The notes under the pieces: model-generated
The model's input: the letters and a program-made list of their open reading frames with translations, nothing else
Databases searched by the model: none
What the model was told of the DNA's origin: nothing
Program-made: the position numbers and the translations under genes
Source of the DNA: Kiritimatiellia bacterium
Lineage (GTDB): Bacteria; Verrucomicrobiota; Kiritimatiellia; RFP12; UBA1067
Direction: 5' to 3'
Assembly: GCA_017563185.1 (NCBI GenBank)
Contig: JAFXIL010000088.1
Span: 1-33,413 of the forward strand
Length of the DNA: 33,413 bases
Shown: positions 19,039-30,682 of the stretch, one piece after another
How positions within the stretch are numbered: the stretch's first letter is position 1
Layout: every line of letters starts with the position of its first letter

Positions 19039-19267
19039 CCGGAACTTACAAATGAAAAATTTAGGTAATGAGTATAATTACTCATTATGTCAAAAAAAGC
19101 ACAAGAAGGGTCGGCGGAGCGCAGGGCGCTCATGTCGAGGATCAGGACTCTGTGCCTGAGGGGGGGGGCTTTGCCCTCTCCGAGCTCTCCGCGCCTCCGC
19201 GTGATACATCCCAGCACCCAGCCGGACGCGATGAAGCGCGTCCCTCCCCCTCATTTGTAATTTCCGG
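19039..19267. mobile_element. Candidate MITE with 17-bp terminal inverted repeats
   Basis: The segment is bounded by CCGGAACTTACAAATGA at 19039-19055 and its near-perfect inverse TCATTTGTAATTTCCGG at 19251-19267 (16 of 17 match). Inside are a 22-bp perfect palindrome with a -10 box, a run of nine Gs at 19160-19168, and a stretch whose complement reads as an alternating (C)GCGGAGGCGCGGAG pattern resembling dispersed intergenic repeats. A 57-codon frame (19087-19260) opens at the palindrome edge with MSKKAQEGSAERRALMSRI, but its second half is Pro/Ser-rich and looks degenerate. No target-site duplication is obvious. It could instead be a decayed gene. Confidence 0.4.
19066..19087 (+). promoter_or_regulatory. 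Perfect palindrome overlapping a -10 box
   Basis: Arms TAATGAGTA and TACTCATTA around TAAT, a perfect 22-bp dyad. TATAAT (19073-19078) lies inside it, and its last base is the A of an ATG at 19087, so any transcript would be leaderless. It has the form of an autoregulatory operator. Confidence 0.5.
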
Positions 19268-20969: not shown

Positions 20970-20999
20970 TTGACATACCCTACGGGGGTATGGTATAAT
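20970..20999 (+). promoter_or_regulatory. csoR promoter
   Basis: TTGACA at 20970-20975, an 18-bp spacer and TATAAT at 20994-20999 preceded by TGG (extended -10). Expected start near 21006, giving a ~26-nt leader with AAAGGA before the csoR ATG. The core reads almost the same as the psd promoter at 31115. Confidence 0.85.
20975..20991 (+). promoter_or_regulatory. CsoR-type operator between -35 and -10
   Basis: Inverted repeat ATACCC-N5-GGGTAT with a run of five Gs, filling most of the promoter spacer. Known CsoR/RcnR-family operators have this form, an AT-flanked C/G tract such as TACCC...GGGTA. Repressor bound here would block RNA polymerase and be released by metal. Confidence 0.75.
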
Positions 21000-21031: not shown

Positions 21032-21310
21032 ATGAAAAAATGCATTGAAGACGTGACGTCGCTCCAGCTTAGGCTGAAGAAGATAATCGGACAGCTGACT
21101 GGTGTCCAGAAGATGCTTGTGGAGGACATTCCCTGCGAGGACATCCTCACTCAGCTCAACGCTGCGAACGGGGCGCTACATCGCCTGTCGTTCATCGTGC
21201 TCGACGGGCATCTCCGCCATTGCGTGCGCGAGGGCATCGAAAAAGGGAACGCCGACGAGACGATTGAATCGTTCGCCGAGGCTCTTGAAAGTTTCTCGAA
21301 GATGGCTTGA
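21032..21310 (+). CDS. csoR: CsoR-family metal-sensing repressor
   Basis: A 92-residue all-helical repressor of the CsoR/RcnR/FrmR family. Residues C35, H60 and C64 (PCEDIL and GHLRHC) form the C-H-C triad used by CsoR to bind Cu(I); RcnR has H at the third position and CstR lacks the histidine. The RLKKIIGQLTGVQKMLVED start is the family signature. The ATG at 21032 is chosen for the AAAGGA site; an in-frame TTG at 21017 would add five residues. It probably represses its own promoter through the operator at 20975 and controls the efflux permease that follows. Confidence 0.9.
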   Translation: MKKCIEDVTSLQLRLKKIIGQLTGVQKMLVEDIPCEDILTQLNAANGALHRLSFIVLDGHLRHCVREGIEKGNADETIESFAEALESFSKMA

Positions 21311-21324
21311 ACGAGGTTCGGGAC

Positions 21325-22332
21325 ATGAATGACATATTGCTTGCTTTTGTCCATGTGTTTGCCATGATGGCACCGTGGCTCGTCTTCGGATTCCTCATGG
21401 CGGGTGTCATCGCCGTATGGATTCCGAGAGGCTGGGTCAATCGCATGATGGGTGGCCGTTCCGGGTTTGGCGGCATTCTTCGTGCCGTCGCAATCGGCGT
21501 GCCGCTTCCGATCTGCTCTTGCGGCGTTCTGCCTATCGCCGCCGGATTGCGCAAGCACGGCGCGGGGAAGGGCCCAACCGCCGCACTTCTCATATCTACG
21601 CCGCAGACCGGCATCGATTCCGTTCTGGCAACATACGCACTGCTTGGTCCTGTCTTTGCGGTGGCGCGTCCCGTTGCCGCCGCGCTTACGGGAATCGTGG
21701 GCGGCGCTGTGGTCTCGGCGGTAGGCGGAGAAGATGCGGCCACGGTGTCCGTTGAGGATGCATCCGCCGGTTCGCGGGGGATAAGAGCGATATTCTGGCA
21801 GGCGTACAGGCGGCTTCTTGGGTCCGTCGCAAAGCCGCTTGCGGTAGGTCTAGCCGTTTCTGCGCTTGTCACGGTACTTGTGCCCGACAATTTTTTCGCG
21901 GATGCATTCCACGGCAGCGACTGGATCGCGATGCCGGTGATGGCTCTTGTCGGGTTCCCGATGTACGTATGCTCGACAGCATCGATTCCGATCGCCGCGT
22001 CGCTCGTAGCCAAGGGTGTCTCGCCTGGAGCGGCGTTCGTGTTTCTGATGGTAGGCCCCGCGATGAACGCGATGTCGCTCACGACCGTTGCCGCCCTAGT
22101 CGGACGCAAGGCCGCAGCCGCATACGTCGCTGTGATCATAGTTGGCGCAATCCTCTGCGGCATTGCGATCAACATGGTTCCAAATGCGCTGCCCATGTCT
22201 GCCTCGGTCGCATCTACGAGACACTCGCTTTCCATCGTTCATTGGGCGTCTGCCGTGTTCTTGGCGGCTATGATGGCCTATAATCTGATGCGACCGTTGG
22301 GGATGGGGCATCATGGCCGCCAAGAAAAATAG
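21325..22332 (+). CDS. SO_0444-type Cu/Zn efflux permease (DUF318 family)
   Basis: A 335-residue membrane protein with about eight hydrophobic helices. The signature PLPICSCGVLPIAAGLRKHGAGKGP, described here in parts, the STPQTGIDSV stretch and the second-half repeat VGFPMYVCSTASIPIAASLVAKGVSPGAA belong to the COG0701 permease family, whose SO_0444 branch exports copper and zinc. The C-terminus has a small histidine group (MGHHG). csoR lies directly upstream, supporting metal efflux. The ATG at 21325 is favoured; a TTG overlapping the csoR stop at 21307 is an alternative. The 3' end overlaps the umuD start by 20 bases. Confidence 0.82.
   Translation: MNDILLAFVHVFAMMAPWLVFGFLMAGVIAVWIPRGWVNRMMGGRSGFGGILRAVAIGVPLPICSCGVLPIAAGLRKHGAGKGPTAALLISTPQTGIDSVLATYALLGPVFAVARPVAAALTGIVGGAVVSAVGGEDAATVSVEDASAGSRGIRAIFWQAYRRLLGSVAKPLAVGLAVSALVTVLVPDNFFADAFHGSDWIAMPVMALVGFPMYVCSTASIPIAASLVAKGVSPGAAFVFLMVGPAMNAMSLTTVAALVGRKAAAAYVAVIIVGAILCGIAINMVPNALPMSASVASTRHSLSIVHWASAVFLAAMMAYNLMRPLGMGHHGRQEK
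22279..22284 (+). promoter_or_regulatory. Possible umuD -10 element inside the permease gene
   Basis: TATAAT 29 bases before the umuD ATG. The sequence 16-18 bp upstream (TGTTCT region) is a poor -35 and no recognisable LexA box is seen. If active, umuDC would have a promoter of its own in addition to read-through from csoR. Confidence 0.3.
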
Positions 22333-25403: not shown

Positions 25404-25931
25404 ATGCCGATGATCGTGACAATGGCATCTCGGTTCGTGCGCCTGCAAGGGGCTGAGCTCCCACGAGCCACACGCAACGGATCCCGCGTGACCGTAAGTT
25501 CTACCGACATTCCCGCGAAGGTCGAACGTCTTGGCGACAAGCTGGCACGCTACACCTCGCGGCTCGTGTTCAGCTTCATCGACATCAACGCCTACAAGAA
25601 GGTTGGCGGCAACCTCAAAAAAGGCGGAGTCAACGCCCGTGAGTTCACGCCGGATGAAATGTGCGAAGTGGCGCAACGCATCGGCGAACTGGCGAGAGGA
25701 TAATGCGGCGGCATGGGCAAACTGGAAGTGGCATTGCGATTGTCCTCATGCGGAAACGATCACGGGTGAAACATCAGCAGAGACGAGGTGCGCATGAAAT
25801 GCATTGTCGAGCTATTTGGTAACGACCGAAACGGGCGAAAGATGATCGCGTGGGGGCGGCGCATCGGTTGCACGGATGCAGAACACGTGTTTGACACCGA
25901 ACGTCGGAACGTTACCCAAGCTTATAAATAA
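25404..25931 (+). pseudogene. Decayed DUF1848 (radical-SAM-like) gene
   Basis: The frame 25404-25703 has a stretch (RLVFSFIDINAYKKVGGNL ... FTPDEMCEVAQRIGELA) that resembles the middle of DUF1848 proteins, where a SFxD motif and a paired helix precede a TCAE-like cysteine motif. The N-terminal TDIP and ASR elements appear only as scraps, and the expected 150 residues before the middle part are missing. After 25703 the frame shifts; a separate 45-codon frame (25794-25931) begins MKCIVELFGNDRNGR, similar to the family's C-terminal CID...LFG part. The final CxxxC region is absent. It is read as a gene broken by deletions and frameshifts; a divergent small gene is the alternative. Confidence 0.4.
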
Positions 25932-25944
25932 TCCAAAATTATAA

Positions 25945-25974
25945 TTGACAAAATGGCAGGGGGGGGGGTAAAAT
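25945..25974 (+). promoter_or_regulatory. Promoter with ten-G spacer tract, upstream of the giant surface-protein gene
   Basis: TTGACA at 25945-25950 and TAAAAT at 25969-25974 are separated by 18 bp, and the last ten spacer bases (25959-25968) are all G. Expected start near 25981, giving a ~79-nt leader. Loss or gain of a G would change the spacing to 17 or 19 bp and so promoter strength. A second TATAAT at 25981 has no matching -35. Confidence 0.7.
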
Positions 25975-26059
25975 AATACATATAATTTTTGGGGGTATTG
26001 TTGCAAGTTGCGGTGATGTTCCCGAAGAGGCGTCTGTGCAAATGAGAAAGGAAGCATCC

Positions 26060-29000
26060 ATGGTAGCAAGAAAAGTGCAACGTGGAAGTTCGCGCGTGCA
26101 GTTCGGAAGAGGGATTGCATTCGCTGCGGTTGCAATCTGCGCGGCGGCGTCATTGACGTCGTTTGCCCAGACGATTGACGGCGACCATACCATAAGTACC
26201 GATACGAAACTGACCGAAGACGTCACCGTCAACGGGCAGCTGATTCTCGACGGCGCGGCAGTCGACCTCAACGGCCACAAGCTCACCGTGAAGGGCGTGA
26301 CCGGTCAGGGTGTCATTACCGACACCTTGAACGACCAGTACGCGCTCTATCAGGAACTGACATATCTTGAATCGACCACGGCGGGGAAGCAGTTCATCGA
26401 TACCGGATACATCCACAGCACCAGGTCGAACGTCCACATCAAGTTCCGGCATCCGTCCTATCCGAAGAATTATACGTGGTTCTCCTATTTCGGCGGCGGC
26501 GGGCGCGACGCGAAGTATTCGTTCGGCGGCTGGATCGTCTATACCGGCGGCAGATACTACCATTGGAAGTCGCTTGGAAGCGGCGAAGGGAGTTGGGCGG
26601 GTTCGAGCGCCAACACCGACTACCATCTCTTCATCAGGAAGAGTTCGGCGGCCGGCGACAGCGGCAACTGCTATGTCGCGAACGCAAGCAACAGCGGTTT
26701 GGTCACAGGAGTGGAAAAGGCGAGCGCGACGGAGTGGCCGACCGACGTCACGCCGGTGACGGCGTATCTGTTCGGTCACCACAACCTCGATGGAACCTTG
26801 AACAGCTCCTATGCCGGTTCGCGCATCTATCTTTGCGAGATCAAGGACGGCGGCACCGCCGCCGCCAATCTGGTCCGCAACTTCATCCCGATGAAACGCC
26901 GCGCCGACGACAAGCCGGGCATGATGGACAAGGTGAACGACGTATTCTACACGAACGCGAACCCGGACAGCACGGCGGACTTCACGGCCGGTCCTGCGAC
27001 GGCGACGACGCTCACCGCGACGGCCGCGGAAATCGCCGCCGCCGGAACGCTCGTCCTCGACATCGACGAGGGCGACAGCGTCAATCTTTCCTCGCTGAAG
27101 CTCTACGGCAAGGTGAAACTCGTGAAGACAGGCAAGGGAACGCTTGTGCAGGACGTCTCGGCGGACTGGGTGTGCGGAATTGAAGTGCAGGACGGCCAGT
27201 TCCAGACCACTGACGCGCTGGCCGCGTCGATAAAGACCGATCTTTCGATAAAGGCGGGAACCACGGTGTCAATCGCATGTACGGGCGCGGCGAGCGCCGT
27301 TATGCCGGCGGCGGTGTCGCTGGAGGCCGGTGCGAAACTGCTCTTCGACACAACCGCTTTCTCCGGCGCCGGATTGGAGTTAACGGTCGGCGGCATCACG
27401 TTCGGCGAGGGCGCGACGGCATCCGAATGTATTGCGACGGCGAACCCGCTTTACGGCGTGACGCTCGAAAGCTCGACATTGATACGGCTCGACCGCCTGG
27501 CCGCGCCGATTACCGCCGTGTGGACGGGCAATGGCACGGCAGGGAACTTCGACGATCCGGGCAACTGGAATTGCTACAACAAACTTGGAGGATTGCTCGA
27601 CAATACGACGCTTCCCAGCGCCGATACCGTCCTCTTCCGTCTTGATGCCGACGCCGATTGGACGGCCAAGGGTGCGATCGCTCTCGGCGAGGGCGTGACG
27701 CTCGACCTCAATGGACACAACCTGACGGCGGCGTCCATCACTGGTGCAGGCGTCGTCACCGATACGACCGCCGCCGACATCATTGTCGCGGACGACGGTT
27801 CGATGTACCAGAAAATCAAGTACGTCCAGGCCACGCAGGACGGCGCGAGCAACAGCGCCCAGAACAAGATACAGTATGTCGATACGGGATACTACCACGT
27901 CGGCACGACGAAGATCGATATCCGCGTCGAGTTCCAGGACGTGAGCTATTCCGGCAACTACGGCTATGCGGTTTACTACGGCTGCCGCGATCAGAACAAT
28001 TATAAAACCGCCCAGCTCGGCGGCTGGTTGCACAACAGCAAGTTCTACTACTACGATACGAGCGAACACGACGGCTCGACCGCCTATACCGGCAGAATAT
28101 ACGACATCCGTCTTGATAAAGGCGGTTCCAGCTACGCCAACTACGCGGATGGTACGCGCGCATCCACCCTCGGCACCGGAAACGGAGTCGGCGATAGCAA
28201 TACATACGGAACGGACTACATCTTCGCCAACAACCAGGTACCGAACGGCGGCAAATACTGGCCGTGCAAGTGCAAGGTGTATTCGTGCAAGGTTTACACG
28301 GGCGACACGCTCGAGCGCGACTTCGTCCCTGTGCGTTGCATTTCCGGCGCGAAGGCGGGGCAGGCCGGTTTCTGGTGCGACGTGACAAAGAAGTTCTACG
28401 GCAACAGCGGCTATGGCAAACTGACCGCCGGCCCGGTGGTGCAAAGCGAAACGCCCGGTGGCGAACTCCACATCACCGTGGCGGAGAACGCGACGCTTTC
28501 GTTGGGTGGTCTGGCGACCATCTGCGGCAACGTAAAGGTCGTGAAGGAGGGCGCGGGCGTGCTGACGCTTCCGGCGGACGGGCAGTATTTCGCGGGCGGC
28601 CTCGAGATCGCGGGCGGAACGCTCTCCTTGACGCAGACGGCGGCCTTCCTCGCCGGAACGCCGATTGTCGCGACGGCGGGCGGAACGATAGAGATAGCCG
28701 TCGCCGACGGCACGTCCTACGCCAACAACTTTACGCTCGCGGGCGGCACGCTCAAGGTGCTTGCTTCCGGCACGGGCAATACCACGACGGCGACTATCGC
28801 CGGAACGCTCGCGCTCGCGACAGGCGCGGCGGACGCGCAGCCGGTCGTCTCCATCGACATGACGGACTGCTCCAGCGCGACGTTCCAGCTGAACACGACG
28901 GCGCTCAATGTCGGCACCGGCGTGACTGCTGCTCCCGGCTTCGTCTCGTTCGCCGACCCGACCGCATACGAGGCGAGCATCGAGGGCGGCACGGCAATCA

Positions 29001-30682
29001 AGGTGGAGAGTTTGACTTCGCCCAGGACGGCGGTGTGGACGGGCCTCGGCGAGGCAGGAAACTTCGACGATCCGGGCAACTGGAGCTGCTCGAACAAATA
29101 CGGCGTCGCGCTCGCCAATACGACGCTTCCCGATAACACGACCCTCACCTTCCGTCTTGCGGCGGACGCCGACTGGACGGCCAAGGGCGCGATAACTCTT
29201 GGCGAAGGCGTAACGCTCGACCTCAACGGACAGGTGCTCATAGTGGCGAATAGCGTATCGGGAGGTGCGATAATCGACACTTCTTGCCAGTCCAGCGGTA
29301 TTTACTATGGAGAAAATGGCGATGTCTGTCTGGAAGCGACGTGGTTGCACTCCACCTCGGCCGGAAAACAGTTTATCGACACGGGCTACTGCCATAATCC
29401 AAGAACAGTAGTTGATATGAAAGTCGAATACAATCCGTCTCTGGATGGCAGTGGCAAGTGGTATTCGTATTTCGGCGGCGGCGGACGCAACGGTAGTGGT
29501 TCGGCGGGACAGAACTACGCCTTGGGCGGGTGGATGATCAATGCAAGCCACTGGAAATCCGCCGGAACATCGCCTGAAGGCGCTTGGGGAACCGCGAAAA
29601 ACAATACTGCATTCACGGTCCATTTGAACAAGAGCGGAGATTGCACCATCAACGGGGCGAAATATTGCACCGGCAACGGCGTGGATTGGGGTTCGACGAC
29701 TCCCGTCACGGCATACATCTTCGGCCATCATAACCTTAACGGGACGCTTTACGACAATCCCTACGTGGGTGTGCGCGTGTATTACTGCAAGATAAGCGAG
29801 GGCGAAACCGTCATACGCGACTTTGTGCCTGCGATGAGGATCACCGACGGCAAGCCCGGAATGTTCGACAGGAAAAACAACAAGTTCTATGTAAACGGCA
29901 ACAGTGCCAGCACTGCTGATTTCAATATTGGGACACTTGCATATTCGGCGACTGGCGGTGGCGGCGAACTGCACATCACCGTGGCGGAGAATGCAACGCT
30001 CTCGCTCGCCGACATGTCTAAGATCGCGGGCAATGTGAAGATCGTGAAGGAAGGTGCGGGGACGCTCGTCGCGCCCACGACGGGGCAGTATTTCACCGGC
30101 GGCATCGAGGTCTCGGCGGGGACGCTCTCCATGGGCGGCGCGCTCGCCTATGGCGGCACGATCAATGCGGCAAGCGGCACGACGGTGTCCGTGCCGGCGT
30201 CCGTCGGCTCGGCGGGCACGAGCGTCATCAACATCACGGGCGGCACGCTCGAGGTCGCGAACTGCGGCACGAGCGTCGTCACTGGCACGGTGACGCTCGG
30301 CGGAAACGCTGTCTCGGTTGCCGGATCGTTCGCGCCGGTCTCCGGCACGGCGGCACATACCATCACGTTCGCCGACGGCGCGACGCTCGACTTCACGCAG
30401 TGGACGGGGGAGTTCCCTGTTGCATCGCCGACGATCGCCTACGCCTCCGGCGCGAACATAACCTTGAAGCTTGAACCGGCGACGACGGCCCTCACGGCTC
30501 TGGCAAGGTCGAAGGACGCGGAAACCGGGAAGCCCAACGGCTATCTGTTCTCCTGGGATTCGCCTCCCACCGACGTCGCGTTCAGCTCGGATGCCGCGAC
30601 GAGGGCCAGGTTCCGCGTCGTGCCGGACGAGAACGGCCTTCGCGTGTCTCTCAAGGCCGGTTCCTGCATAATCATCAAATAG
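26060..30682 (+). CDS. Giant secreted protein with three LamG-like/beta-strand-repeat modules
   Basis: A 1540-residue exported protein. The ATG at 26060 is chosen because AAGGAAG lies before it and it yields a basic start plus hydrophobic signal peptide (GIAFAAVAICAAASLTSFAQ, cut after residue ~37). Three ~500-residue modules follow. Each has a LamG-like sandwich around an (I/V)DTGY motif (residues 113, 607, 1106), ending in a F(I/V)P...PG-(M/F)-D-K-x-FY closing segment, then autotransporter-associated beta-strand repeats (NVKVVKEGAGVLTLP, GGLEIAGGTLSL). Linkers with TAVWTG...NFDDPGNW begin at residues 485 and 990. No membrane barrel, sortase motif or clear sorting domain is seen at the C-terminus, which ends SCIIIK. 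It is probably a surface adhesin or glycan-binding protein; the ligand is unknown. Expression may be phase variable through its promoter. Confidence 0.85.
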   Translation: MVARKVQRGSSRVQFGRGIAFAAVAICAAASLTSFAQTIDGDHTISTDTKLTEDVTVNGQLILDGAAVDLNGHKLTVKGVTGQGVITDTLNDQYALYQELTYLESTTAGKQFIDTGYIHSTRSNVHIKFRHPSYPKNYTWFSYFGGGGRDAKYSFGGWIVYTGGRYYHWKSLGSGEGSWAGSSANTDYHLFIRKSSAAGDSGNCYVANASNSGLVTGVEKASATEWPTDVTPVTAYLFGHHNLDGTLNSSYAGSRIYLCEIKDGGTAAANLVRNFIPMKRRADDKPGMMDKVNDVFYTNANPDSTADFTAGPATATTLTATAAEIAAAGTLVLDIDEGDSVNLSSLKLYGKVKLVKTGKGTLVQDVSADWVCGIEVQDGQFQTTDALAASIKTDLSIKAGTTVSIACTGAASAVMPAAVSLEAGAKLLFDTTAFSGAGLELTVGGITFGEGATASECIATANPLYGVTLESSTLIRLDRLAAPITAVWTGNGTAGNFDDPGNWNCYNKLGGLLDNTTLPSADTVLFRLDADADWTAKGAIALGEGVTLDLNGHNLTAASITGAGVVTDTTAADIIVADDGSMYQKIKYVQATQDGASNSAQNKIQYVDTGYYHVGTTKIDIRVEFQDVSYSGNYGYAVYYGCRDQNNYKTAQLGGWLHNSKFYYYDTSEHDGSTAYTGRIYDIRLDKGGSSYANYADGTRASTLGTGNGVGDSNTYGTDYIFANNQVPNGGKYWPCKCKVYSCKVYTGDTLERDFVPVRCISGAKAGQAGFWCDVTKKFYGNSGYGKLTAGPVVQSETPGGELHITVAENATLSLGGLATICGNVKVVKEGAGVLTLPADGQYFAGGLEIAGGTLSLTQTAAFLAGTPIVATAGGTIEIAVADGTSYANNFTLAGGTLKVLASGTGNTTTATIAGTLALATGAADAQPVVSIDMTDCSSATFQLNTTALNVGTGVTAAPGFVSFADPTAYEASIEGGTAIKVESLTSPRTAVWTGLGEAGNFDDPGNWSCSNKYGVALANTTLPDNTTLTFRLAADADWTAKGAITLGEGVTLDLNGQVLIVANSVSGGAIIDTSCQSSGIYYGENGDVCLEATWLHSTSAGKQFIDTGYCHNPRTVVDMKVEYNPSLDGSGKWYSYFGGGGRNGSGSAGQNYALGGWMINASHWKSAGTSPEGAWGTAKNNTAFTVHLNKSGDCTINGAKYCTGNGVDWGSTTPVTAYIFGHHNLNGTLYDNPYVGVRVYYCKISEGETVIRDFVPAMRITDGKPGMFDRKNNKFYVNGNSASTADFNIGTLAYSATGGGGELHITVAENATLSLADMSKIAGNVKIVKEGAGTLVAPTTGQYFTGGIEVSAGTLSMGGALAYGGTINAASGTTVSVPASVGSAGTSVINITGGTLEVANCGTSVVTGTVTLGGNAVSVAGSFAPVSGTAAHTITFADGATLDFTQWTGEFPVASPTIAYASGANITLKLEPATTALTALARSKDAETGKPNGYLFSWDSPPTDVAFSSDAATRARFRVVPDENGLRVSLKAGSCIIIK
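26345..30130 (+). repeat. Threefold ~1.5-kb in-frame repeat within the giant gene
   Basis: Module anchors lie about 1.5 kb apart: (I/V)DTGY codons at 26396, 27878 and 29375, linkers at 27512 and 29027. Some parts are almost identical at base level, for example a 25-base block at the NFDDPGNW linkers and a ~30-base block around HITVAENATL (28467 and 29970). Such identity allows recombination that adds or removes modules. Confidence 0.7.

Follow-up and report, generated by a model that had tools for sequence, protein, structure and literature searches.

The window analysed here is a stretch of 33,413 nucleotides from a draft genome of the Kiritimatiellota (3.2 Mb, 206 contigs; hereafter G000, with C numbers for its contigs). 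On its plus strand, at 25945-25974, lies a promoter whose -35 box TTGACA (25945-25950) and -10 box TAAAAT (25969-25974) are separated by an 18-bp spacer, AAATGGCAGGGGGGGGGG (25951-25968), which consists of AAATGGCA followed by ten Gs (25959-25968). This reading, taken directly from the sequence, is exactly the arrangement given in the first-pass annotation, and in a draft assembly of 206 contigs a tract length may be one base off. The two boxes flank the tract, which is uninterrupted and within the length at which slippage can be expected (about 8 or more); it is the putative slippage site of the locus. The TTGACA is intact, so the homopolymer does not stand in place of the -35 box as in an opc-type promoter, and it ends 91 bp upstream of the ATG rather than lying within the frame 3' of the start. 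A 5' leader (25983-26042) and a Shine-Dalgarno-like AAAGGAAG (26047-26054) follow on the same strand.

The ATG at 26060 opens a reading frame (26060-30682, plus strand) for a protein of 1540 residues. It had been described as secreted and modular, and both attributes were recovered: the N-terminus is signal-peptide-like, and three related all-beta modules lie at 26339-26998, 27791-28438 and 29312-29938, the second and third with 48% and 28% identity to the first. Repeats of the PATR/autotransporter type were indicated by Pfam at a sub-threshold score, which together with the N-terminus points to a surface or secreted product, and a location at the cell surface is predicted. An autotransporter beta-barrel domain was found with neither Pfam nor NCBIfam, and the protein does not qualify as a type V autotransporter. 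The AlphaFold model of the first module had a mean pLDDT of only 60, and Foldseek returned no match for it at E 0.001, the weak matches being lectin-like beta-sandwiches; a binding role for the module is therefore only a guess. The protein ends (30640-30682) in a short hydrophobic stretch with a single K or R, as do many tract-controlled proteins of this genome (C60, C134, C159, C174, C178 and C23; endings such as IIIK, IILR, ILIR, VIIR, ILFR, MIVK and VLVK). This C-terminus, which we could not assign to a known family, is a possible sorting signal.

The window promoter is not the only one of its kind in the genome. G000 contains some 26 G runs of at least 9 nt, and nine of these runs sit between promoter boxes (score of at least 9/12, with the TTGA and TATA/TAAA cores intact). 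A tenth tract promoter, with G8, is found on C174, and a weaker eleventh on C23 combines a good -10 box with a poor -35 box. About ten promoters thus carry G8-G13 in the spacer, each preceding a gene for a large signal-peptide protein. Runs of at least seven Gs occur in 0.028% of the 18-mers of sampled G000 DNA, versus 4 of 49 promoters of the form TTGAC-N12-22-TATAMT; 0.014 such promoters would be expected (p about 1e-9). A signal-peptide-like start, called by a simple hydrophobicity rule, was present in 11/11 tract-promoter genes versus 15/39 tract-free ones (Fisher p = 2e-4, in a post hoc test that includes some paralogous tract promoters). The complete tract-driven proteins have 600-1600 residues and start 38-98 bp from the tract, and the modules of the window's protein recur in several of them. 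A G9 run at window 19160-19168 was considered as a further promoter and rejected, as it has no boxes.

Two other loci of this genome deserve mention. At C19:18842-18872 (L232) possible promoters pointing in opposite directions flank a G10/C10 tract. The gene read to the right codes for an adhesin-like protein of the thioester-domain plus SpaA type, which is to our knowledge unusual outside Gram-positives, and this gene has a nearer, tract-free promoter candidate as well. The predicted protein of the C138 gene (L238) ends in an Arg/His/Gly-rich segment resembling an out-of-frame reading, which suggests that the gene or its assembly carries a frameshift.

The spacing of ordinary promoters gives a measure for that of the tract promoters. 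In the tract-free promoters of G000 the commonest spacer is 18 bp (22/45), followed by 17 bp (15/45), and the two lengths together account for 37 of 45. It had been proposed that the loss of one G would restore an optimal 17-bp spacing at the window locus. This does not agree with our counts: as 18 bp is the modal spacing in this genome, the G10 promoter is probably ON or near ON as assembled, and not one G away from its optimum. In a post hoc comparison of related promoters, a 17-18 bp spacing was found in 9/21 pure tracts and in 8/8 interrupted ones (p = 0.006). Over 51 tract promoters, a longer tract goes with a shorter remainder of the spacer, and the two compensate in this way (r = -0.49, permutation p = 3e-4). 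Such a pattern is expected if pure tracts vary around a spacing that works and interrupted tracts stay fixed at it. Within G000, interrupted tracts precede signal-peptide genes at C180:2016-2044 (G5AG4, 17-bp spacer) and C160:20611-20640 (G6CGG, 18-bp spacer), and both may be former switches that have become locked; a paralogue of the C160 gene, at a distance of 6 kb, carries a pure G10.

The earlier annotation had suggested counting tract lengths in related genomes, and this comparison brought out one-G differences at two other loci as well as wide variation within the family of the window promoter. In the C134 gene's promoter the tract is G10 in G000 versus G11 in G013, between identical flanks, and in the C174 gene's promoter it is G8 versus G7 in the same two genomes. 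The family itself comprises 18 homologous promoters of the form TAATTGACAAAAynGnCA-G(n)-TAAAAT, distributed over G000, G010, G012 and G014 of the same genus and G136 of another genus in the same family. The TTGACA is kept across these five genomes, although most members were found with a search pattern containing TTGACA and only those on G012 C91 and G010 C145 through DNA homology; the -10 box varies to TATAAT (G136), TAGAAT (G010 C145) and CAAAAT (G012 C91). Pure tracts in the family range from G6 to G12, with spacers of 14-19 bp, and two G010 paralogues that are 87% identical have G8 (C14) versus G9 (C160). In five members the run is broken by another base, always at a spacing of 17 or 18 bp; one of these, GGGAGGGGG on G014 C63, has flanks equal to those of the window promoter.

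The switch is not fixed to the gene in the window. The nearest orthologue of the gene body, on G014 C50, shares 92% DNA identity from window 26133 onward, but its signal peptide is not the same and its promoter is of the ordinary, tract-free kind (TTGACG, 16 bp, TAGACT). It was considered as a sister-species orthologue of the window promoter with another tract length and had to be rejected, because its promoter is unrelated. Conversely, a homologue in another genus (L108, G136) retains a homologous promoter and a partly conserved leader (72% identity over 104 bp, promoter included) with a G10 tract, but only a 14-bp spacer. Taken together, a gene that lacks the tract and a promoter that is kept elsewhere suggest that the switch may move among surface-protein genes as one unit of promoter, leader and signal peptide, although these are few cases. 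Many genomes of the genus contain the roughly 120 bp just upstream of the promoter (25791-25912) at 75-89% identity; this stretch holds a 45-codon ORF starting MKCIVELFGNDRNG, beside a DUF1848 fragment (25404-25703).

The same design recurs in the order. The pattern TTGACN-N0-10-G7-N0-6-TATANT gave 41 matches in 27 of 162 genomes of the order, against none for the reversed pattern and 6 for a C7 version. In a phylum-wide sample it was present in 9/43 genomes of the order versus 1/345 elsewhere. The tract lies next to the -35 box, centrally or next to the -10 box, depending on the promoter. A scan of named genomes yielded at least 119 stretches with spacer promoters of G9 or longer, mostly from gut Clostridia, Bacilli and Saccharibacteria and including some isolates; the design is therefore not special to the Kiritimatiellota. 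Among the matches listed, 102 had a nearby reading frame, and 74 of the 102 frames had a signal-peptide or membrane-like start. Also among the matches listed are G9-G14 spacer promoters before lipoproteins or secreted proteins (L139, L168, L170, L175, L181 and L214), with spacers of mostly 16-20 bp; they belong to isolates cultured from the gut, namely Pumilibacter muris, P. intestinalis, Anaerocaecibacter muris and Hydrogenoanaerobacterium, and to Streptobacillus notomytis.

We consider it likely that the G10 run is a contingency tract in a sigma-70-type promoter, in which slippage shifts the spacing and hence the transcription of the 1540-residue surface protein. In the proposed mechanism, replication slippage would add Gs to the tract or remove them, which would alter the distance between the boxes in steps of 1 bp and thereby transcription of the gene. 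The promoter would be weaker with tracts of at most G8 (spacers of up to 16 bp) and with tracts of at least G11 (spacers of at least 19 bp). We infer that such slippage takes place within one population and affects transcription. The window promoter would be one of about ten, all placed before large secreted proteins, and its promoter and leader would belong to a family whose members are scattered through the genus and can be swapped between surface-protein genes. Judged from its DNA, the microbe probably switches surface proteins on and off by gain or loss of Gs.

The poly-G might instead be a fixed promoter feature, such as a regulator binding site or a structural G-rich spacer, that involves no switch. 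The order-wide bias to G (41 matches versus 6 with C) and the conservation of the tract position across genera, seen at L108, would fit this idea. However, the lengths differ among orthologues and paralogues, what is roughly kept is the total spacing and not the tract, its position inside the spacer varies, and interrupted copies work out at a normal spacing; we regard a fixed feature as unlikely. Transcription could also start from the TATAAT at 25981-25986, a perfect -10 hexamer, so that the tract would be irrelevant. This hexamer lacks a -35 box at 16-18 bp, where the poly-G lies, and a TGn extension, and it is not conserved in the family, in contrast to TTGACA and TAAAAT, which makes a downstream start very unlikely.

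Translational phase variation would require the ATG at 25953 (AAAATGGCAGGG), upstream of the tract, which a tract of G8 or G11 would place in frame with the protein; at those lengths the frame is indeed open into the protein. This ATG lies upstream of the -10 box and has no Shine-Dalgarno sequence, while the real start at 26060 has one. Moreover, it is missing in most family members, which read AAAACCG at this place, and the tract lengths of the family are not confined to differences of three. We find this reading highly improbable. There is even less to be said for the tract being an assembly or sequencing artefact, for instance two-colour Illumina poly-G, a view already contradicted by the data and to which we give almost no credence. 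Long G runs do lie at or close to the ends of two G000 contigs (C167 ends exactly in G14, and C193 has G12 at 21-32); at these ends variable tracts may have broken the assembly, or the runs may be read artefacts. The promoter tracts, on the other hand, lie inside contigs, their flanks on either side match across many genomes that were deposited separately, and they fall precisely between the promoter boxes, compensating for the rest of the spacer.

Phase variation through spacer homopolymers has precedents in other bacteria. In the vlp gene family of Mycoplasma hyorhinis every promoter has a poly-A in its spacer. The resemblance to the present case is that a set of surface-protein genes each have a homopolymer of their own between the promoter boxes; there the tracts are of A, whereas here they are of G and the genes are dispersed and only partly related. 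Akkermansia represents a related phylum-level group. In A. muciniphila homopolymeric tracts were found inside genes (capsule) and mononucleotide phase variation was suggested (PMC3048395), whereas the tracts described here lie in promoter spacers. In porA of Neisseria meningitidis a poly-G lies between the -35 and -10 boxes and the spacing decides promoter strength (PMC7864442). The window locus shares with porA the poly-G within the spacer and the surface-protein target, but porA is one locus, and the genome studied here, from a different phylum, has about ten loci and a dispersed promoter family. The TP0126 gene of Treponema pallidum, an OmpW homologue, likewise has a poly-G between the boxes, with transcription best at 17 bp (PMC7864442). 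It differs from our case in that the tract-free promoters here favour 18 and 17 bp, and in that TP0126 encodes a small outer-membrane protein and the window gene a large modular secreted one.

The first-pass annotation had placed the tract exactly as in porA and opc. The parallel with porA stands. That with opc is limited to a homopolymer in the promoter of a surface-protein gene, because the poly-C of N. meningitidis opc encompasses the -35 region (PMC7864442) and the TTGACA of the window is intact. The central proposal of that annotation, that slipped-strand mispairing at a poly-G in the spacer switches a surface-protein gene, is strongly supported by the recurrence, the secreted targets, the tract lengths of orthologues and paralogues and the interrupted variants, without the claim of being one G from the optimum and without the opc parallel. 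The proposed phase variation of the porA/TP0126 type is thus well supported by recurrence, secreted targets, length differences among homologues and interrupted variants at 17-18 bp.

In the open-access literature we found no paper that joins the Kiritimatiellota with phase variation and none on homopolymer promoters of gut bacteria. The mechanism is already known. The novelty lies in the lineage and the number of loci, in a shared promoter family and in variants that appear to be locked. Slippage-driven promoter switching is so far known mostly from host-restricted pathogens, and about ten such promoters aimed at secreted proteins in an uncultured gut member of the Kiritimatiellota would make contingency loci a tool of commensals also. 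The natural pure and interrupted spacers of 14-19 bp offer a ready-made series on spacing versus promoter strength outside the Proteobacteria. A wider reading, for which we see about equal reason for belief and doubt, is that the gut Kiritimatiellota of this order possess a combinatorial surface phasome that spans the genome. In it, some ten unlinked promoters with G tracts, spread in part as exchangeable promoter/leader/signal-peptide cassettes, would step independently, and base interruptions would act as natural locks at a working spacing. Numerous uncultured Clostridia, Bacilli and Saccharibacteria of the gut share the promoter design.

A different type of spacer element is also present in the window. 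At 20970-20999 (TTGACATACCCTACGGGGGTATGGTATAAT) an inverted repeat lies in the spacer of a promoter. The promoter precedes a small ORF whose product looks like a metal-sensing repressor, and an ArsP-type permease (21307-22332) comes next. Promoters of a similar kind are found at C28:31854, before a TetR-like gene, and at C94:17397.
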